A DNA stretch of 36,280 bases from a virus, in IMG/VR virus record IMGVR_UViG_3300032050_000401, positions 1 to 36,280 of that record; one strand, given 5' to 3'. Shown here piece by piece: positions 5,889-21,443 of this stretch. Within the stretch, counting starts at the first letter, position 1; each line of letters begins with the position of its first letter. A program made the translations under genes and the position numbers. The notes under the pieces are model-generated. The model had not been told where the DNA came from and did not search any database. It saw only the letters and a program-made list of their open reading frames with translations.

Positions 5889-6338
5889 ATGAAATCCCAA
5901 GTCGTCCCGGTGGCCGAGCTGTTCGTCGGCTGGGTCCGGGAAACCACCGGCAAGAACGATGGCCCGTGGGTGGAGGCCATCCAGCGCACGACGGGGAATA
6001 AGAAGGGCGACCCGTGGTGCGCCAGTTTCGTCAACTGGGTACTGGACATCGCCTACCGGGACATGAACCCGCTCCCGGCGACCGCCTCCTGTGACGTGCT
6101 GCTGGAGTTCGCCCGCAAGAACCAGCTCCTGACCAGTACGCCGCAGCCGGGCGATGTCTTCCTCGTCATGCGCACCAAGAACGACGCCATCCACACCGGC
6201 ATCGTAACCGAGGTCAAAGCGGATACCGTCAAGACCATCGAAGGGAACACCAACCGCGAAGGCGCCCGCGAAGGCAACGGCGTCTGGGCCAGAGAACGGC
6301 CCCGCGCCGGGCTCCTCTTCATCCGCGTTCCAAGCTAG
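5889..6338 (+). CDS. CHAP-domain endolysin
   Basis: A 149-residue protein. The start ATG 5889 was chosen over an in-frame upstream ATG because GAGG (5881-5884) lies four bases before it and the upstream choice would overlap the previous gene by almost 100 bases. It has the layout of a minimal CHAP (cysteine/histidine amidohydrolase-peptidase) domain: the catalytic Cys lies in GDPWCASFVNWVL, then PGDVFLVMR, the His in HTGIVTEV, and the third catalytic-site region in TIEGNTN. CHAP enzymes cut peptidoglycan as amidases or endopeptidases. There is no signal peptide and no separate wall-binding domain, so export would depend on the holin-like protein upstream. It is the last gene before a strong terminator. 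Confidence 0.85.
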   Translation: MKSQVVPVAELFVGWVRETTGKNDGPWVEAIQRTTGNKKGDPWCASFVNWVLDIAYRDMNPLPATASCDVLLEFARKNQLLTSTPQPGDVFLVMRTKNDAIHTGIVTEVKADTVKTIEGNTNREGAREGNGVWARERPRAGLLFIRVPS

Positions 6339-6363
6339 CCGCGCACGACCCCTCCCGTGCGCT

Positions 6364-6401
6364 CCCGGTTGCGTCGCATTTGGCGCAGCCGGGATTTTTT
6401 T
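6364..6401 (+). terminator. Intrinsic (rho-independent) terminator of the virion/lysis operon
   Basis: The left arm 6364-6375 (CCCGGTTGCGTC) pairs over 12 base pairs, two of them G-U, with 6382-6393 (GGCGCAGCCGGG) around a six-base loop. An A and seven T follow (6395-6401). It lies 25 bases after the CHAP gene stop and just before a promoter, so it separates late from early transcription. Confidence 0.9.
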
Positions 6402-6407
6402 GCCCCC

Positions 6408-6436
6408 TTGCGCGATGATTCAAGAACACCTATGCT
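6408..6436 (+). promoter_or_regulatory. Sigma70-like promoter for the early/replication operon
   Basis: TTGCGC at 6408-6413 and TATGCT at 6431-6436 are separated by 17 bases, the ideal spacing. The -35 matches three and the -10 four of six consensus positions. It starts just after the terminator and 47 bases before the first early gene (6483), where a promoter is needed. The spacer contains one copy of a repeated nonamer. Confidence 0.6.
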
Positions 6437-6457
6437 ATCGGCCCGCGCATGATTCAA
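6415..6457 (+). repeat. Direct repeat flanking the early promoter -10, possible operator pair
   Basis: ATGATTCAA occurs at 6415-6423, between the -35 and -10, and again at 6449-6457, a few bases past the expected transcription start. The copies are 34 bases apart, close to three helical turns, and both are preceded by a CGCG-like context. Two same-face sites around a -10 are typical of operators for a phage regulator. The binding protein is not known. Confidence 0.45.
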
Positions 6458-6482
6458 CGAAAACCCCCGCCACGGAGACCCT

Positions 6483-6695
6483 ATGACAGAAACTGAGACG
6501 GTACAGCGCATTGTACGCCTCGAAGAGGAATCGCAGGAAATCAACAGGAACCTGCAGGCATTACTGGAAACGACTCAGCGACACCGGCAGGCGATGGTGA
6601 TCCTGACGCATCAGCTCTTGGAGCTGGGGAATCTCGTCATGGATGGGATGGAGGACGACGACCGCACTTCGGCGGCGTCGGAGTTGGTCAGCTAA
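6483..6695 (+). CDS. Small coiled-coil early protein, unknown
   Basis: A 70-residue acidic, helical protein and the first gene after the early promoter. GGAGA (6474-6478) lies four bases before the ATG. Residues 8-50 have heptad spacing (VQRIVRLEEESQEINRNLQALL, then further hydrophobics), suggesting a coiled-coil dimer. The C-terminus is Asp/Glu-rich (MEDDDRTSAASE). No family is recognised. First-in-operon small acidic phage proteins often act on host machinery, but nothing here shows that. Confidence 0.7.
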   Translation: MTETETVQRIVRLEEESQEINRNLQALLETTQRHRQAMVILTHQLLELGNLVMDGMEDDDRTSAASELVS

Positions 6696-6709
6696 CGACA
6701 GGAGAACAG

Positions 6710-7177
6710 ATGCCGATTCACAAGCTCGCGGATGGTCCGGTGGCGATTACCGTCATTGGGGCGGAGAGTGTCGAGGGGAAGTTCGGGGCGCAGGTCCGGT
6801 TTATGGGAGATGACGGCACGGACGTGTACGTCAATGAGCTGCCGGCGCAGAAGCAGCTGGCCCGTCTGCAGCTGGATCTGCAGTCGGTGGTGGGCAAGAC
6901 GATCCACTTGGAGCAGGTGAAGAAGAACGGCACCACTTTCACCAATATCTCGCTGGCGGCTGGCGCGTCGGCGGGGGCCGCAGCGCCACGGGCAGCAGTT
7001 GCCGCGCCGGCGGCGGCTCCCAAGCTGTCCATCGAAGAGCTGGGCGCCCTGTACGGGCAGTGCGTGGCGCTGGCGTTTGAGCATCTCTACCGGCAGTGCG
7101 AGGAGGCCGGCATTGCGGTGACCTCGGAAGCGATTCAGGCGGCAGCGGCGACGCTGTTCATCAAGGCGACCCGATGA
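6710..7177 (+). CDS. Early protein, possible OB-fold nucleic-acid binding
   Basis: A 155-residue protein with AGGAGA upstream of the ATG. Residues 1-85 are beta-rich (AITVIGAESVEGKFGAQVRF, then DVYVNELPAQKQLARL, then GKTIHLEQVKKNGTTFTNISL), a strand pattern that would suit an OB fold. An Ala/Pro linker follows (about 88-108), then a helical C-terminal domain (SIEELGALYGQCVALAFEHLYRQ). A beta domain, flexible linker and separate tail just before a nuclease and helicase recall single-strand binding proteins. No aromatic DNA-binding signature is certain, so this is a structural guess. Confidence 0.65.
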   Translation: MPIHKLADGPVAITVIGAESVEGKFGAQVRFMGDDGTDVYVNELPAQKQLARLQLDLQSVVGKTIHLEQVKKNGTTFTNISLAAGASAGAAAPRAAVAAPAAAPKLSIEELGALYGQCVALAFEHLYRQCEEAGIAVTSEAIQAAAATLFIKATR

Positions 7178-13590: not shown

Positions 13591-13880
13591 CCACCGACCG
13601 TTCACCGTTCATGCATCGTGAGCGCGAACCCGGTAGCCCGGAAGCCATTGCCAACGGCTGCACCTGCGCGGCTGACGACAACGCCCACGGACAGGGCGTG
13701 ATCCTCAAGTACAGTCCACCGGGCCAGCCGACCCGCGCATGGTGGATCGCCCCCGACTGTCCCCTGCACTACATCCTGAGTCCGTACAGTCGGACCCCAA
13801 AGCCGCCACTCGACGAACTCACCGCCACCGCTCAAGCCACCGGCCAATACGACATCCCCACCGAACCGCCCCATGCCTGA
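13587..13880 (+). CDS. Conserved small phage protein, GSPEAIANGCTC type
   Basis: A 97-residue protein coupled by ATGA. It contains GSPEAIANGCTCAADDNAHG and, after a variable part, WWIAPDCPLH. The pattern 'GSPEA...GCTC....DN..G......W.I..DCPLH' recurs in small phage proteins I recognise, usually in replication or accessory regions. The Cys/His positions (C26, C28, C58, H61) would suit a zinc knuckle. The Pro-rich tail is probably disordered. Function unknown. Confidence 0.65.
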   Translation: MTTDRSPFMHREREPGSPEAIANGCTCAADDNAHGQGVILKYSPPGQPTRAWWIAPDCPLHYILSPYSRTPKPPLDELTATAQATGQYDIPTEPPHA

Positions 13881-14280
13881 CACGAAATACAGCACCTCCG
13901 CCCTCCTCATCCTCCGCTCCCTTGCCAACAATCCGGACGGCCAGACGCTGGACGAACTGGCGCTCGACCATCCCGACCGGCTGACCGAAACGCTCAGGTC
14001 TGCCGCCTGTCGCCTAACCACGAAGGGCTACGCCCAGCGCATCGCCCGGAAGACGTGGCGCATCACGGAGAAGGGGCACCGCCTGCTGGCCGGGGAGGGG
14101 CACCTCAACAACTTCCGGCCCCCGACGAAGCAGGAGGTGGAGGAGAACAAGCAGCGCAACGTGCCGTGGATCAACCCGATTCGAGCCCGGGCGCTGGGCC
14201 TGACCAACGCAGGGGCTGCCGCGAGCCGCTCCGGCGCCGTGGCCGCGAGCCGCTCCGGCCTGCTGCGGCGCGGGGCATGA
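13873..14280 (+). CDS. Winged-helix DNA-binding protein
   Basis: A 135-residue protein that begins eight bases inside the previous gene. Residues 5-75 look like a winged HTH: STSALLILRSLANNPDGQTL, then LDELALDHPDRLTETLRSA, LTTKGYAQRIARKTWRITEKG with a typical wing and 'ITEKGHRLL' ending. The C-terminal 60 residues are basic with a duplicated AASRSG (AAASRSGAVAASRSG). It is likely a regulator or DNA-bound accessory factor near the end of the early operon. Confidence 0.68.
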   Translation: MPDTKYSTSALLILRSLANNPDGQTLDELALDHPDRLTETLRSAACRLTTKGYAQRIARKTWRITEKGHRLLAGEGHLNNFRPPTKQEVEENKQRNVPWINPIRARALGLTNAGAAASRSGAVAASRSGLLRRGA

Positions 14281-14654
14281 CGGCCGACGGGCGGCCGTGG
14301 TGGGTCGCGGTGGTCAACCCGCCCGGCGGACCCGCTCGGGCGTTTGCCAGCTGGCAAGCGGCGGACGCCGGGTGCGCGGCCGAGTATTGCCGGGCGCTCC
14401 TGTCCACCCGGCCGGACCTGCCGGCGGCGTTTGTCTTTGTCAACGGCGTCCGGTTGTCGTTGTATCCGGGGCCGGTTCGTCCTGGGGGATGGCAATCCCG
14501 GGGCGCACTGGCAAAGCGGGCCGCTGCCCGGGCGGCGCTGCTGGCCAAGTGGCGGGTGGCGTGGGCTGGCAAACTTCCGCCCACTGGCAATAAATCTGCC
14601 CACTGCCGGGCGCCTGAACGCACACAACCCCCAGCCGCCGGGAGTGGCAGCTGA
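14277..14654 (+). CDS. Unknown basic protein, last gene of the early operon
   Basis: A 125-residue protein starting at ATG 14277 (ATGA overlap). The N-terminal 60 residues look folded (PWWVAVVNPPGGPARAFASW, then FVFVNGVRLSLYPGPV), resembling small 'substrate-card' beta-alpha units but matching no family I can name. Residues 75-105 are Ala/Arg/Lys-rich and helical (ALAKRAAARAALLAKWRVAW). The stop lies inside a large hairpin that ends the operon. Confidence 0.58.
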   Translation: MTADGRPWWVAVVNPPGGPARAFASWQAADAGCAAEYCRALLSTRPDLPAAFVFVNGVRLSLYPGPVRPGGWQSRGALAKRAAARAALLAKWRVAWAGKLPPTGNKSAHCRAPERTQPPAAGSGS

Positions 14655-14697
14655 GGGTTGCGGTGGGTGCGGGAGCCCCCGCCAAGGGGCCGCACCC
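14625..14697. terminator. Double hairpin between convergent operons, likely two-way terminator
   Basis: Hairpin 1 pairs CAACCCCCAGC (14625-14635) with GCTGAGGGTTG (14650-14660), with one mismatch, and includes the plus-strand stop codon. Hairpin 2 pairs GGGTGCGG (14665-14672) with CCGCACCC (14690-14697), with an inner CCCC/GGGG stem. Neither has a T-run. Being symmetrical and between converging gene sets (14654 and 14712), they could stop or stabilise transcripts from both sides. Confidence 0.55.
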
Positions 14698-14711
14698 GGA
14701 AGCTAGCGGGG

Positions 14712-15110
14712 TTATTCGCTGAGGTCCAGCGCGTGCAGGGCGTGCGCGTCGCGCTCGCCGTCCGGAGTGATGCGGCCGGCCATCATTACCAGCCGGGTCC
14801 GTTCGTCTAGCCAGTCGAGTTCCTCGACGGTGAGCGGGGCCGTCTCGCCGTCCTCGTAGCGCAACCCGGCCACCAGCAACGGGCCGGCCAGCGGGTTGCT
14901 GGCGCCATCGAGGAAGCAGGTGAACGGGAGCCCGTCGATTAGGCCGGAATCGTTGACGTAGCCGGTGATGGCGTAGCCGTGGCGCGTTGGGGAGTCGATG
15001 GTGAACACCGGCTCGATGTAGCCGCCGACGGTCGCCTGCATGGCGGCCAGCGTCAGCGGATGGTCGATGGCGTGGGCGCTAGTCGTGTCGATCAGAAAGG
15101 CGTTGAACAT
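14712..15110 (-). CDS. DUF3846-like protein
   Basis: A 132-residue protein on the minus strand. The start at 15110 is preferred because AGGAG lies seven bases before it; a longer frame to 15167 has a low-complexity Pro/Ser start. The middle reads TVGGYIEPVFTID, GYAITGYVNDSGLIDGLPF and NPLAGPLLVAGL, then LTVEELDWL. The order 'VGG.IE', 'N..G...GLP', 'GP.LV.G', 'LT.EE' is the DUF3846 pattern, common in phages and mobile elements and of unknown function. It is the last gene of the minus operon. Confidence 0.68.
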   Translation of the reverse strand: MFNAFLIDTTSAHAIDHPLTLAAMQATVGGYIEPVFTIDSPTRHGYAITGYVNDSGLIDGLPFTCFLDGASNPLAGPLLVAGLRYEDGETAPLTVEELDWLDERTRLVMMAGRITPDGERDAHALHALDLSE

Positions 15111-15120
15111 GGCGGGGCTC

Positions 15121-15216
15121 CTAGTGGGTGAGGGTGCAGCGGGTGAGGGTGTAGCAGAGGGCGGCAATGGTGACGTACACCAGCCAGTCAGGGACGGGGT
15201 CCGGGCGCCGGCTCAT
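15121..15216 (-). CDS. Micro-protein (31 aa), possibly membrane-associated
   Basis: An ORF of 31 codons with GAGGAG eight bases before its ATG, which overlaps the stop of the preceding gene (ATGA at 15213-15216). It reads as a basic start (SRRPDP) then a hydrophobic stretch (WLVYVTIAALCYTL) and a short tail. The tight coupling and good ribosome binding site make it credible despite its size. Function unknown. Confidence 0.5.
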   Translation of the reverse strand: MSRRPDPVPDWLVYVTIAALCYTLTRCTLTH

Positions 15217-15335
15217 GCGTCCGGCTCCTCGTGACAGGTGCAGACGGTGACGGGCAGCCAGCAGGCCGGACAGTTGCGCGGGGGCGGCTCCGGGGGCGGT
15301 TCCTGGACCCCCGGGTTGCTGGTTTTGGCGGTCAT
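15213..15335 (-). CDS. Micro-protein (40 aa) with zinc-knuckle-like Cys/His cluster
   Basis: The ATG at 15335 overlaps the upstream stop (ATGA). A Pro-rich start (QEPPPEPPPRN) leads to CPACWLPVTVCTCHEE: C-x2-C-x6-C-x-C-H, a compact cluster likely to bind one zinc. Such zinc-ribbon mini-proteins often serve as adaptors in phage operons. A longer frame to 15503 would overlap the neighbour deeply and is Arg-rich shadow sequence, so it was rejected. Confidence 0.55.
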   Translation of the reverse strand: MTAKTSNPGVQEPPPEPPPRNCPACWLPVTVCTCHEEPDA

Positions 15336-16219
15336 GCGGCCGCCTCGATGCGGCCGGGGAACAGCGCCGCGACGGCGTCGGCCAAGTTGCGCCGGGCCTG
15401 TTCGGCGTTGTCGGCCCGGGGCAGGACGTAGGACACCGGCGGGATCATGCCGGCGCCGGCGGCATCGGTCACGGCCTTCCGGATGCCGTCCGGCTTCAGA
15501 CACTTGCCCATCGACTCTTGCTGTTCCATTGGAACGGTCCAGAGCGTTTGGAATCCCAGCGACCGATACACGCCAGCGTGTCCGATCACGGCCGCGACAA
15601 GGTCCGCCCGTAGCGGCTCCTCGGCCCGCTTGAGCATCATATCCACCATCTGGGTGTAGCCGTGGCGGTTGTAAGTCACGGTGCCATCGATGGCGCGCAG
15701 CTCGACCCGATAGCCGGCCGCTTCGAGCGCGTCGGCGAGGACGATGGCTTGCAGCGCGTTCCAGATAAGCGCCTCGTGTTCAACGGCGGCGCTCGCCATC
15801 CATCCGGCCGACAGACTGATGACGGCCGGGTCATCGACCCGCACCGGGGCGCGGCGGGTCCATGCGGCATCCCAGTTGCCAGCCAGCGCGGCGTCGATGC
15901 GCAGCTCCTCGCCCTCGTCGCCCGTGATGCGGCGCCGGCGGGTGATGGTCCCGGCCGGAATGGCGCCGGCCAGTTGGTCCCGGAGCTCCTCGGCCCGGTC
16001 GGCGCCTTCCTGCCAGCCCGCCGCGAACAGCTGGCGGGCCTCCTCGACGCTGCCCAGCCAGCCAGTCCAGCTGCCGCCCATGTGGCCGGCGGCCTTGGCA
16101 AACCCTGCCCGGTTGCACGACGGGGCGTCGGCCGCGCTCAGGGTGGCCAGCGTGGCCACGTCGAGCCGGGTGGTGGTGAGCTTCAGCGCATCGTTGACGG
16201 CATGGACGGTGCGGTTCAT
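15332..16219 (-). CDS. Partner protein of the AAA+ ATPase, DUF7192-like
   Basis: A 295-residue protein whose ATG (16219) overlaps the stop of the ATPase gene. The N-terminal part contains HMGGSWTGWLGSVEEARQLF and AAGWQEGADRAEEL, a pattern I associate with phage proteins (DUF7192-type) encoded next to MoxR/CobS-like ATPases. The central part (PAVISLSAGWMASAAVEHEAL, LADALEAAGYRVELRAIDGT) has the alternating strand-helix rhythm of a von Willebrand A-like fold, but a full DxSxS metal site is not seen. The closest is SLSAGW. By analogy with CobT or VWA partners, it may be remodelled by, or recruit substrate for, the ATPase. Function unknown. Confidence 0.6.
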   Translation of the reverse strand: MNRTVHAVNDALKLTTTRLDVATLATLSAADAPSCNRAGFAKAAGHMGGSWTGWLGSVEEARQLFAAGWQEGADRAEELRDQLAGAIPAGTITRRRRITGDEGEELRIDAALAGNWDAAWTRRAPVRVDDPAVISLSAGWMASAAVEHEALIWNALQAIVLADALEAAGYRVELRAIDGTVTYNRHGYTQMVDMMLKRAEEPLRADLVAAVIGHAGVYRSLGFQTLWTVPMEQQESMGKCLKPDGIRKAVTDAAGAGMIPPVSYVLPRADNAEQARRNLADAVAALFPGRIEAAA

Positions 16220-17595
16220 GACGCCACCCCGCACGCCTTCAGGTCCGCGTCAGTCCATCCGGAGAGTTGAGCCCGCACCGCATCCGCGACCGGGACACCG
16301 TGGCACACGTGCGCCATCTCGGCCCGCTCGATCATGCGGCCGGTGACCCAGCGACGGAGCCCCAAGCTCCGAACCCTGGCGCGGATCACGTGGAACGTGT
16401 CCACGATGGCCGGAACCGAACAGAGCGACCGTTCCAGCTCGGCGTCGTAATCGCAGTCGAGCACAACCCAGCGGTCCAAGCTGGCGGCGTCGAGCTGCGA
16501 CCGGCCGGTGTAGAGCCGGCTAGCACCGGTGCCGTACGTGTTCATAGCGCTGAACAGGATGAAATCCGGGTGCCGCTCGATCACCTCCCCGCTCGGCGCG
16601 GCCCAGCGCTTCGCCTCAAACATCCCGTTCGCGGCGGTGAGGACGTTCGCGTCCAACCCGTCCATTTCGTCGAGCAGGAAGACGCCACCGTTCCGGAAGT
16701 AGTCCACCAGCTCGGACGCTCTGTACACTTCCTCGCCGGTGTTTAGGTTCGGCGTCATGCGGCCGAACAGCTTGGACTCCGCGACGCCCCCGGAGCAGCT
16801 AAAGGGATGGAAGCGGAGTCCCAGCGCGGCGGCCACCTGCTCCGCCAGCGTGCTCTTGCCGGTGCCGGCGTCGCCAACCAGCGCGACGTTGAACCGGAGC
16901 CCGTTGCGCCGGGTGGATGCGGCCCAGCGCAGCGCCTCGGCAAGCAACACATGCGCCGTGCCTTCCGTCTCGCGCTCCGGGAGGTCGTTGATCCGGACCC
17001 GGACCGTGGGGGCGCCGGTCGGCCGGCTGGCAAGTTCGGCCTCCAGTGCCGCAATCCGGGCGCCAACCCGGGCATCGACAACAGCGGCCAGCAGGGCGTC
17101 GAGCGACCCGGCAGCGGCCGGGGCGGGGGCAGGGGCGGACGGGGTCGCGGTCAAAGCGTTCAGCATGGCGGGGGGCTCGGTTGTGGTGGACGTGGTGGAC
17201 GTGGTGGACGTGCCGGGGAGCGGCATTCCGGGGAGCGGCGGGGCGCCGCGATGGTTCACAAGGTGCGCCGCTTCGACCTGTACCATGGCGGCGGTGATCT
17301 TGCCAGACTTCGGGGTCTTCCAAACGAACGCGACGAACGCGAAGCGGGCGTCATCTTCTACGGCGCTGACGATGCCCCGGGTACCCTCCGGGATGGTGAC
17401 GGGAAACCGGGCAGATGGGCCCAACACGGCATCCACGGTGCCGGTGTAGCCGTAGGTTGTCAGCGTGGCCAGTACGTCGGCCGGGGCGGTTGGCGTCATC
17501 CATCCCCGGGCGTCGGGGATGGCGGCGCCGAGCTTGACCTGCCGGCCGGGCACGAGCCCGGCCAGCGTGTCGAGAGGGTAGCGATCGAGGGTCAT
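16216..17595 (-). CDS. MoxR/CobS-like AAA+ ATPase
   Basis: A 459-residue protein, first gene of the minus operon. The start at 17595 is the first Met after the promoter; an AGGAG lies 12 bases upstream, which is long. Residues 1-115 form a beta-rich N-terminal domain of unknown role. Residues 120-165 are a Ser/Thr/Pro linker made by short tandem repeats. The ATPase follows: Walker A GDAGTGKS (241-248), Walker B VFLLDEMD (305-312), sensor-1 Asn352 (FSAMNTYGTG) and an arginine-finger candidate in SLDRW (372-376). The closest families are MoxR, CobS and phage relatives, which remodel proteins or metal-chelatase complexes as hexamers. The fold is certain; the substrate is not. Confidence 0.82.
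   Translation of the reverse strand: MTLDRYPLDTLAGLVPGRQVKLGAAIPDARGWMTPTAPADVLATLTTYGYTGTVDAVLGPSARFPVTIPEGTRGIVSAVEDDARFAFVAFVWKTPKSGKITAAMVQVEAAHLVNHRGAPPLPGMPLPGTSTTSTTSTTTEPPAMLNALTATPSAPAPAPAAAGSLDALLAAVVDARVGARIAALEAELASRPTGAPTVRVRINDLPERETEGTAHVLLAEALRWAASTRRNGLRFNVALVGDAGTGKSTLAEQVAAALGLRFHPFSCSGGVAESKLFGRMTPNLNTGEEVYRASELVDYFRNGGVFLLDEMDGLDANVLTAANGMFEAKRWAAPSGEVIERHPDFILFSAMNTYGTGASRLYTGRSQLDAASLDRWVVLDCDYDAELERSLCSVPAIVDTFHVIRARVRSLGLRRWVTGRMIERAEMAHVCHGVPVADAVRAQLSGWTDADLKACGVAS
17183..17239 (-). repeat. In-frame minisatellites in the AAA+ linker
   Basis: Three perfect copies of the plus-strand 9-mer GTGGTGGAC (17183-17209) encode a TSTTSTTST run. They are followed by two copies of CCGGGGAGCGGC spaced 15 bases apart (17213-17224, 17228-17239) encoding PLPGMPLPG. 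Because unit lengths are multiples of three, copy-number change would alter linker length without frameshift. Confidence 0.75.
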
Positions 17596-17651: not shown

Positions 17652-17681
17652 ATGGTAGCACCGGGCCGGGTGTCTTGTCAA
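17652..17681 (-). promoter_or_regulatory. Leftward sigma70-like promoter of the AAA+ operon
   Basis: On the minus strand a perfect TTGACA (-35, 17681-17676) is followed after 18 bases by TACCAT (-10, 17657-17652, four of six matches). It points toward the ATPase gene, whose start is 57 bases downstream of the -10. It is the best promoter match in the region. Confidence 0.62.
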
Positions 17682-18967: not shown

Positions 18968-20293
18968 ATGCCATCGAAAGCCAAACCGTCGGGCGGGGAG
19001 GTGCAGGTCGTGCTGGCCCGGCGGCATCCGGGGCAGCAGGAGATCGTGATGCATCCGGCCCGGTTCAAGGTGGTGATGTGTGGGCGCCGGTTTGGGAAGA
19101 CGGCGCTGGGGGTCCGGGAGGCCTGTGACGCGGCCTTGGCGGGGCAGCCGGTAGGCTGGTTTGCGCCGACGTATAAGTACGTGTTGGAGGTGTGGCGGGA
19201 GCTGTTGCAGCGCCTCAAGCCGGTGATTGGGCGGTCCAACGATCAGGAGCGCCGGATTGAGTTGGTGACGGGCGGGGTGATCGAGATGTGGACGATGGAT
19301 ACCCCGGATCCCGGCCTTGGGCGCAAATACAAGCTGGCGATCATCGATGAGGCGGGGATCGTCCCGGAGCTGCTGGACCTCTGGCAGCGGGCGATCCGAC
19401 CGACGTTGGTGGATCTCTCCGGCGGCGCCATGTTCTTAGGCACGCCCCGAGGGCGCCGGCACGGGTTTGTCGTGCTGTTCAACCGGGGAAACGACCCGAA
19501 CGAGCCCAACTGGGCCAGTTTCCGGGCCAAAACGCTGGACAACCCGTTTATCCCGCCGGAGGAAGTCGAATCGGCCCGGAAGGAGCTACCGCCGGAGGTG
19601 TTTGCGCAGGAGTTCGAGGGCATCCCGACCGACGATGGCGCCAATCCCTTCGGGTTGGAGGCCATCCGGCGGGCGATAGGACCGCTGAGTCCGGACAAGC
19701 CAGTCGTGTACGGGGTCGATTTGGCCCGGTCGATGGACTATACGGTGGTGATTGGGCTGGATGCGTACCGGAAAGTGGCGTGTGTGGACCGATGGCAGGC
19801 GCCGTGGGCCGAAACCAAGGCCAAAATCCGGGCGCTGGTGGGGCAAACGCCCATCGTGGCGGACGCCACGGGCGTCGGCGACGCCATCGTGGCCGATTTG
19901 CAGGGGATGGGGGTGGATGTGACCCCCCATGTCTTCACCCAGCCGTCCAAACTGCGCCTGATGCAGCGGTTGGTGGCGGCGTTCCAGGGGTCCGAACTGA
20001 CGATTCCGGACGGGTGGCTGATCGGGGAGCTGGAATCGTTCGAGTTTATGTATACGGCCACCGGGGTGCGCTATGAGGCCCCCTCCGGGTTCCATGATGA
20101 CGGCGTCATGGCCTTGGCGCTGGCCCTGTACGGGTGGGACCGGGTGCAAGGGGTGGTCCCAGAAGCGCCCCCGGGCTTGCGTTTTGTCGGGGATGACCCC
20201 AATGTGGATGTGGACAACTCGGACGGCGGTGTGGACAACCGTCGGCGGGTGATCGCGGGCGACTTTGCGGCGCAACTTCCCGGAGTGTGGTGA
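18968..20293 (+). CDS. terL: Terminase large subunit
   Basis: A 441-residue protein. ATPase half: Walker A-like CGRRFGKT (38-45), Walker B LAIIDEAG (123-130) and coupling motif LGTPRG (157-162). Nuclease half with RNase H-like fold: GVDLARSMDY (D251), VADATGVGD (D299) and FHDDGVMALALA (D377/D378). It pumps DNA into the prohead through the portal and cuts it. The length is usual for compact podovirus/siphovirus terminases. All catalytic positions are present, so it should be active. The start has GAGG four bases upstream. The C-terminal 40 residues are acidic and variable. The stop overlaps an HNH endonuclease gene (TGATG). Confidence 0.95.
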   Translation: MPSKAKPSGGEVQVVLARRHPGQQEIVMHPARFKVVMCGRRFGKTALGVREACDAALAGQPVGWFAPTYKYVLEVWRELLQRLKPVIGRSNDQERRIELVTGGVIEMWTMDTPDPGLGRKYKLAIIDEAGIVPELLDLWQRAIRPTLVDLSGGAMFLGTPRGRRHGFVVLFNRGNDPNEPNWASFRAKTLDNPFIPPEEVESARKELPPEVFAQEFEGIPTDDGANPFGLEAIRRAIGPLSPDKPVVYGVDLARSMDYTVVIGLDAYRKVACVDRWQAPWAETKAKIRALVGQTPIVADATGVGDAIVADLQGMGVDVTPHVFTQPSKLRLMQRLVAAFQGSELTIPDGWLIGELESFEFMYTATGVRYEAPSGFHDDGVMALALALYGWDRVQGVVPEAPPGLRFVGDDPNVDVDNSDGGVDNRRRVIAGDFAAQLPGVW

Positions 20294-20748
20294 TGGCGAG
20301 CCTTTCTCAGCGTTTCCTTGCAAAGTTTCAGGAAGTGCCTGAGATCGGGTGCTGGATTTGGACTGCGTATGTAGACAAAAACGGCTATGGACAGATTACG
20401 ATCAATAGGCGTCACTACAGAGCGCATCGTGTATCATACGAATCGCGTTTTGGTACGATCCCTGATGGTCTTGTTGTTGACCATTTGTGTCGTCAGCCAA
20501 GTTGTGTGAACCCTGACCATCTCCGTGCGGTTACCAACAGAGAAAACTTGATGGCCGAAGGCAGTTTGGCTTTAGCTAAACGTCAGGCAGAGCAAACACA
20601 CTGCAAACGGTGTGGGTCTGAGCTGATTCAGATGTCAGGTCAGCGAGGATGCCTTCCGTGCAAGCGTGAACGCTGGAAAAAAGAAAACCATCGCCGCGCT
20701 CAACTTCTTCGCGCAAAGAAAGCCACTGCCGTTTTATCGGAGTCCTGA
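20293..20748 (+). CDS. Free-standing HNH homing endonuclease
   Basis: A 151-residue protein; ATG 20293 has GGAG seven bases upstream and shares one base with the TerL stop. The N-terminal half carries GCWIWTAYVDKNGYGQI and HRVSYE; the HNH core is VVDHLCRQPSCVNPDHLRAV (D63, H64, N73, H76), with C66/C71 as structural zinc ligands; a second zinc knuckle is CKRC (104-107) and CLPC (120-123). HNH_3-type homing endonucleases of this form cut DNA near their own insertion site to spread. GC content over two sample lines is about 48%, against about 70% in TerL, which suggests recent arrival from elsewhere. HNH genes next to terminase can also assist packaging, so a domesticated role is possible. Confidence 0.88.
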   Translation: MASLSQRFLAKFQEVPEIGCWIWTAYVDKNGYGQITINRRHYRAHRVSYESRFGTIPDGLVVDHLCRQPSCVNPDHLRAVTNRENLMAEGSLALAKRQAEQTHCKRCGSELIQMSGQRGCLPCKRERWKKENHRRAQLLRAKKATAVLSES

Positions 20749-21369: not shown

Positions 21370-21443
21370 CAGGCGCGTGGCTCATTCGGTAGGAGCACCG
21401 GACTGTGACCCCGGGGAAGTGGGTTCGAATCCCACCCGCCTGA
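21370..21443 (+). tRNA. tRNA-His (GTG anticodon), with irregular acceptor stem
   Basis: A cloverleaf can be drawn: acceptor 5' CAGGCG(C)G with 3' CCGCCTG (21436-21442), D arm GCTC/GAGC, anticodon stem CCGG/CCGG with loop CTGTGAC (21403-21409, anticodon GTG 21405-21407), T arm GTGGG-TTCGAAT-CCCAC. The 5' acceptor strand holds one extra C (bulge, or a C-C mismatch at pair 7), and 31-39 is A-C. The G(-1):C73 pair needed for normal histidine identity is absent (A73), and no CCA is encoded. It may be functional but atypical, or decaying. Confidence 0.8.

Follow-up and report, generated by a model that had tools for sequence, protein, structure and literature searches.

What does a short gene cluster that runs against the rest of a viral genome encode, and which of its genes belong together? 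We addressed this question in the virus record IMGVR_UViG_3300032050_000401, whose entire linear length of 36,280 bases is the window analysed here. Its minus strand carries a MoxR/CobS-class AAA+ ATPase (P0001, 459 residues, gene 1, 16216..17595) and a partner of the DUF7192 family (P0002, 295 residues, gene 2, 15332..16219), followed by two micro-proteins and a DUF3846 protein (P0005). An original prediction, made from the sequence, regarded all five genes as one self-contained module. We find that the conserved operon core is two genes, the ATPase and DUF7192, which probably encode an ATP-driven remodelling chaperone pair, i.e. a MoxR-class ring and a VWA-like co-chaperone devoid of the metal-ion-dependent adhesion site (MIDAS).

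The ATPase and DUF7192 genes form the conserved core

We assembled 111 ATPase-baited loci from scans of viral and genome collections. The alignments A2 and A3 contain sequences too far apart to be used as patterns for finding loci, and closer subsets of them served as bait. A hidden Markov model search located DUF7192 next to the ATPase in 102 loci, mostly directly downstream. A Mycoplasma bin (L119) adds a partner once TGA is read as tryptophan, the DUF7192-like gene at 5938-6792 being readable only in this way, which brings the count to 103 of the 104 loci, from phages and bacteria, with sufficient flank. The other seven loci were too short to judge, six of them at a contig end and one (L044) with 449 nucleotides left. 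With DUF7192 as the bait, the ATPase was found upstream in 30 of 32 loci and the remaining two start at a contig edge, i.e. 30 of 30 testable loci. The 295-residue protein had been proposed as the partner of the ATPase, and its gene is indeed a near-constant neighbour. An ATPase commonly occurring on its own would have spoken against this proposal; partnerless copies were almost never seen.

The possibility that the ATPase is often partnerless was considered and rejected. The apparent exceptions are contig ends, the code-4 genome L119 and a fusion in a Turneriella bin (L121, 4830-5846), where the ATPase open reading frame (ORF) continues into the HVSFLRR part of DUF7192 as a deletion remnant of the pair; only locus L067 stands. 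In L067, a reverse-transcriptase-like ORF (861-1535) directly follows a shortened ATPase ORF, a possible insertion or chimeric contig.

Clustering of the 8008 ORFs encoded at these loci showed the ATPase and DUF7192 to be the only families common throughout. Additionally, the tree distances of the two families correlate with r = 0.75, compared to at most 0.16 in 1000 permutations, a correlation that linkage alone could produce.

The ATPase is of the MoxR/CobS class and resembles CobS

P0001 is built of a lineage-specific N-terminal region of about 115 residues, a Pro/Thr-rich linker and an AAA_5 domain at approximately residues 236-430. It matches Pfam AAA_5 (E 1.5e-17, 64 bits, cut-off 22) and PHROG 249 (E 2.5e-41), and its PDB sequence matches are Midasin, CobS and NorQ. 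Invariance was judged in alignment A2, which contains seven divergent phage members. The Walker A motif GDAGTGKS (residues 241-248; 16852..16875, minus strand) holds the invariant residues G241, G244, G246 and K247, and the Walker B motif FLLDEMD (residues 306-312; 16660..16680, minus strand) holds D309, E310 and D312. N352, R375 and R420 are invariant too, the roles of sensor 1, arginine finger and sensor 2 being assigned to them by position. The domain match, the PHROG family, the PDB relatives and the invariant motifs agree with the MoxR/CobS class originally proposed, and P0001 can be described from its sequence as an active-looking ATPase of this class.

PHROG 249 bears the label 'porphyrin biosynthesis', according to which the pair would be auxiliary metabolic genes of the metal chelatase type (CobS-CobT). 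The ATPase is related to CobS, as it matches the CobS equivalog TIGR01650 with an E value of 1.5e-9, and among the viral MoxR-VWA pairs known are cobST pairs, tied to cobalamin (PMC8651126). However, the TIGR01650 score of 37.5 bits is far under the cut-off of 558.55, CobT_C was found in none of 12 pair-bearing bacterial genomes, and the partner lacks a MIDAS and has about half the size of CobT-like proteins. The CobST reading was ruled out on score, and we regard a chelatase function as highly improbable; P0001 is CobS-like, not CobS. The 'porphyrin biosynthesis' label, widespread on this ATPase, looks wrong.

In about ten loci (including L003, L021, L035, L078, L087, L091, L094 and L097) the ATPase carries a zinc-ribbon-like CxxC...CxxC (or CxxH) motif ahead of the AAA domain. 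In the light of these motifs, the separate Cys-rich micro-protein encoded in the window is suggestive, no more.

DUF7192 has a predicted VWA-like fold that lacks the MIDAS

P0002 matches Pfam DUF7192 (E 4.4e-21, 75.9 bits, cut-off 27), as do all 85 relatives. A PDB sequence search with P0002, either as a single sequence or as a profile of 85 rows, gave nothing significant. An AlphaFold (AF2) model based on 85 aligned sequences reached a mean predicted local distance difference test score (pLDDT) of 88.1 and a predicted template modelling score (pTM) of 0.82. In a Foldseek search of the PDB with this model, ranks 1-5 were all NorD-VWA chains of NorQ-NorD complexes (E 1e-4 to 0.02, probability 1.00 for the best). 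In the same way, a search of viral models returned DUF7192 proteins first and then VWFA/CobT-like phage proteins, with E values of 1e-5 to 1e-3.

In Gordonia and Brevibacterium phages, whose ATPases are more distant, a genuine VWA_2 or CobT_C protein sits in the slot after the ATPase. Profile-profile comparison (hhalign) of DUF7192 with the VWA domains of these partners gave P = 2e-4, compared to P = 0.13 for the negative control, DUF7192 against the ATPase profile. The aligned stretch covers strand 1 and helix 1 as well as a shared G-x(2,3)-[DN]-x2-R-x3-G motif. In P0002 this motif is degenerate and lies before the VWA-like strand 1 as G103-x3-[DN]107-x2-R110-x3-G114 (15878..15913, minus strand); it is also present in phage CobT-like VWA proteins. 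The most conserved positions of DUF7192 are R219, within the motif HPxxLRRxxF, together with G103, G169, K197 and G238; R219 (15563..15565, minus strand) is the only invariant residue among the 85 members. The structural and profile matches make a VWA-like fold for DUF7192 a well-supported prediction, and the earlier guess of a VWA or CobT-like partner was right as regards the fold.

The MIDAS was searched for as a DxSxS string and a conserved Asp, its T and last D not being looked for separately. Around strand 1, a DxSxS-like string occurs in just one of the 85 members, where it precedes the strand, and this region has no conserved Asp. The MIDAS metal-binding motif is absent from DUF7192. 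In NorD, mutations of the MIDAS abolish client activity and not NorQ binding (PMC9976466), and NorD contacts the NorQ ring via a finger in the pore and via its C-terminus (PMC13036017). Since the MIDAS of NorD is dispensable for NorQ binding, a partner without it could, by analogy, still dock and move.

Proposed mechanism and its weak points

In the mechanism that we propose, the ATPase would form a hexameric AAA+ ring of the MoxR/CobS/NorQ type, and DUF7192 would be its dedicated co-chaperone. The VWA-like domain would dock on the ring and, once docked, would transmit the movement powered by ATP to its client, a protein or a complex, in the manner of NorD on NorQ. Complex formation, ring geometry and remodelling are the parts of this reading that we infer by analogy. 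As the MIDAS, the client grip of classical VWA partners, is gone, the client is probably gripped elsewhere; a different surface, for which the conserved HPxxLRRxxF / GYG region is a candidate, or added adaptors could serve.

Several observations weigh against this reading. Global TM-scores between P0002 and NorD reach just 0.22-0.32 and the root-mean-square deviation is large, which makes the fold match a local one. Despite the small P value, hhalign assigns a probability of just 45%, and none of the 85 DUF7192 members matches the Pfam VWA or CobT_C profiles. Locus L067 holds an ATPase without detectable partner, and since no gene besides DUF3846 recurs near the pair, the client is not indicated. 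The low TM-scores and the missing Pfam VWA match would also suit an unrelated alpha/beta protein that co-occurs with the ATPase for another reason, e.g. as its client. Nevertheless, each of the five top-ranked PDB chains is a VWA protein that partners a MoxR ATPase, the profile-profile match is independent and includes the motif, and a CobT-like VWA protein takes the same slot in other phages; such a non-VWA fold is thus improbable.

The remodelling chaperone pair is closest in type to NorQ-NorD of Paracoccus and Jhaorihella, which also combines a MoxR-class ring ATPase with a VWA partner and whose NorD-VWA is the first PDB match of the DUF7192 model. The differences are that NorD, unlike DUF7192, has a MIDAS, carries a large domain at its N-terminus and acts on a known client, cNOR, and that P0001 is just distantly similar to NorQ (E 6e-5). 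With CobS-CobT and the phage CobT-like VWA proteins it shares a CobS-related ATPase, the glycine-arginine motif before strand 1 and the gene slot; the phage CobT-like partners, unlike DUF7192, measure about 580-640 residues and possess the MIDAS (DxSxS ... DG). Cellular MoxR-VWA pairs have conflict systems among their other roles (PMC7159879). The MoxR-vWA ternary conflict systems (VMAP, iSTAND, FtsH) are built on the same MoxR and VWA core pair, whereas the DUF7192 loci are without a third conserved protein (VMAP, iSTAND, FtsH) or effector domains.

The kind of machine is therefore already known from these systems and the MIDAS-less partner family is new; in a literature that excludes most subscription journals, DUF7192 is not named, and neither its fold assignment nor the near-constant pairing was found described. 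The case of DUF7192 suggests that loss of the MIDAS, believed to be where the client is gripped, is possible for a MoxR co-chaperone. In Staphylococcus, mycobacterial, Listeria and crAss-like phages the pair is now annotated as 'porphyrin biosynthesis' and 'hypothetical protein'. Reading the pair as an AAA+ ring with a VWA-like partner corrects this common annotation and offers a testable mechanism for both genes, and the tractable laboratory phages that carry the pair are a route to the client.

Distribution of the pair and nature of the client

The pair is present in phages of Staphylococcus, Mycobacterium, Acinetobacter, Rhizobium, Listeria and Enterococcus and in one crAss-like phage, and it is carried by 236 Staphylococcus phage records and by more than 80 mycobacteriophages. 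Two small genes separate the ATPase from DUF7192 in the Rhizobium phage, and the order of the pair is reversed in the Enterococcus phage. In Acinetobacter phage Bestia (L004, 4755-5627, minus strand) an endonuclease-like gene (PHROG 681) lies between the two. In some Staphylococcus phages (MK250904.1, OR495699.1) the DUF7192 gene is labelled 'AAA family ATPase', a label that looks wrong.

The pair was found in bacterial contigs as well. The copies of seven chromosomes from Streptomyces, Saccharothrix and Amycolatopsis group together with good support in a single clade next to phage sequences, and no phage genes were evident around these actinobacterial pairs. One or two DUF7192 copies were present in all 14 pair-bearing bacterial genomes, compared to none in 14 well-known control genomes.

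The neighbourhood varies among phages, the pair stands alone in actinobacterial chromosomes, and it has no constant structural, metabolic or effector neighbour. For these reasons we weakly favour a client in an early or intracellular process of infection, be it a phage or a host complex, rather than in virion building.

Under a rival reading, counter-defence or host takeover, the pair would act at an early stage of infection to take apart an immune or metabolic complex of the host. The copies of Staphylococcus phages and mycobacteriophages lie among small non-structural and membrane-protein genes, and the operon of the window is preceded by a promoter-like site of its own and oriented opposite to the structural genes, which speaks for such a function. 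However, the chromosomal copies of Streptomyces, Saccharothrix and Amycolatopsis do not resemble counter-defence, and PADLOC gave only weak generic AAA matches and none for the partner. Nothing found here points specifically to anti-defence or links the module to host takeover or to defence. We consider counter-defence or takeover unlikely.

A chaperone of virion assembly has precedents in two viral MoxR-VWA pairs reported to be linked to this process (PMC4124505, PMC7824862). The p618-p892 pair of ATV is virus-encoded and of the same pair type; it differs in belonging to an archaeal virus, as a virion component involved in tail development (PMC4124505). The group 2.2 jumbo phages also encode a MoxR-VWA pair (PMC7824862), and their VWA is fused to a metallopeptidase, unlike DUF7192, which is a single domain of about 280 residues. 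In line with an assembly role, the operon and the terminase genes are divergently arranged both in the window and in its relatives, and the pair of P106B is near head and tail genes. Against it, the bacterial chromosomal copies have no virion genes nearby, the crAss-like copy is found among replication genes, and the operon of the window lies on the strand opposite the structural genes; an assembly role is as unlikely as takeover.

Returning to the remodelling chaperone pair, we tentatively suggest that DUF7192 could be a separate MIDAS-less VWA-like branch which, with its own ATPase, would constitute a widespread phage remodelling system with a common intracellular client, taken into actinobacterial chromosomes.

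The micro-proteins and the DUF3846 protein

The gene after DUF7192 encodes a Cys-rich micro-protein of 40 residues with a C-x2-C-x8-C-x-C-H knuckle (15213..15335, minus strand). Its ORF is kept in the approximately 90% identical relatives only (L011, L010) and was not found in L013, L014 or the other loci. The next gene encodes a membrane-like micro-protein of 31 residues (15121..15216, minus strand), which is present also in L013 (54% ATPase identity), where it starts from 7290, MTTPPDVVPDAVIYAAVVVLAVLVTRCSLP, directly overlapping the DUF7192 stop; it was not seen in other lineages. We also considered that a small membrane protein might always follow DUF7192. This was ruled out, a membrane-like ORF occurring at this place in just 9 of 105 loci.

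The micro-proteins are local additions of one phage lineage. Their proposed role as adaptors of the module is consequently not supported, as they are confined to this lineage, and the five genes do not persist as a unit elsewhere. In a five-protein system, both micro-proteins would be essential adaptors; the genes do overlap and the ORFs are constrained in the closest relatives, but the micro-proteins' absence from other lineages and the few membrane-like ORFs after DUF7192 make such a system very unlikely.

The last gene, P0005 (14712..15110, minus strand, 132 residues), matches Pfam DUF3846 (E 1.7e-12, 47.9 bits, cut-off 27.5); its structure model had no significant PDB match (best E 0.3). 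In 23 loci, including the window and two mycobacteriophages, DUF3846 is encoded downstream within 3 kb of the pair and in the same orientation. It recurs in about a quarter of the viral loci, never upstream and never in bacterial loci, and was found in 22 of the 32 DUF7192-baited loci, several of which are almost identical to one another. DUF3846 accompanies the pair as an accessory that recurs without being obligatory.

UPIE and L163 each have another DUF7192 gene immediately after DUF3846. Second DUF7192 genes away from the ATPase (L002, 7092-8421; L163, 4480-5834) are possible alternative partners of the same ring.

Operon layout and genomic context

The five minus-strand ORFs described between 17595 and 14712 are all present. 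As predicted, they are mostly joined by ATGA: the first three junctions are ATGA overlaps, and the second micro-protein and DUF3846 are separated by a 10-nucleotide gap. Compared with the approximately 90% identical relative L011, the ratio of nonsynonymous to synonymous substitution rates (dN/dS) is 0.17-0.32 for all five ORFs, with changes mostly at codon position 3. This pattern indicates purifying selection on all five; the case is weaker for the two micro-proteins because few changes were counted (22 and 10).

The operon runs opposite to the rest of the genome, as every PHROG-matching gene elsewhere in the window is on the plus strand. It is located between the replication genes and a region that holds the terminase, portal, capsid and tail genes. 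A DNA-level search of annotated phages with the operon region gave no match.

A TTGACA promoter of its own had been proposed, and a single promoter-like site was found upstream of gene 1, TTGACA-18-TACCAT with an extended -10 TG (17652..17681, minus strand); it is the only match, with 0.2 expected by chance. The hairpins described at the end of the operon are present as well. Two strong GC-rich hairpins follow the last gene (14610..14700, minus strand) as a possible transcript end, and the 3' hairpin fold of 116 nucleotides has an energy of -70.6 kcal/mol (z = -4.0). Because they have no U-tract, a terminator is not established, and a scan with the terminator consensus gave a single weak match, no more than chance would give.

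Three further features of the window lie on the plus strand. A weak match to PHROG 2440 (transcriptional regulator) at 13873-14280 converges on the end of the operon, and a similar ORF is present in L008. An HNH endonuclease gene (20287-20748) directly follows the large terminase gene, and a tRNA gene (21371-21442; Rfam, 46.5 bits) is located in the structural gene region.

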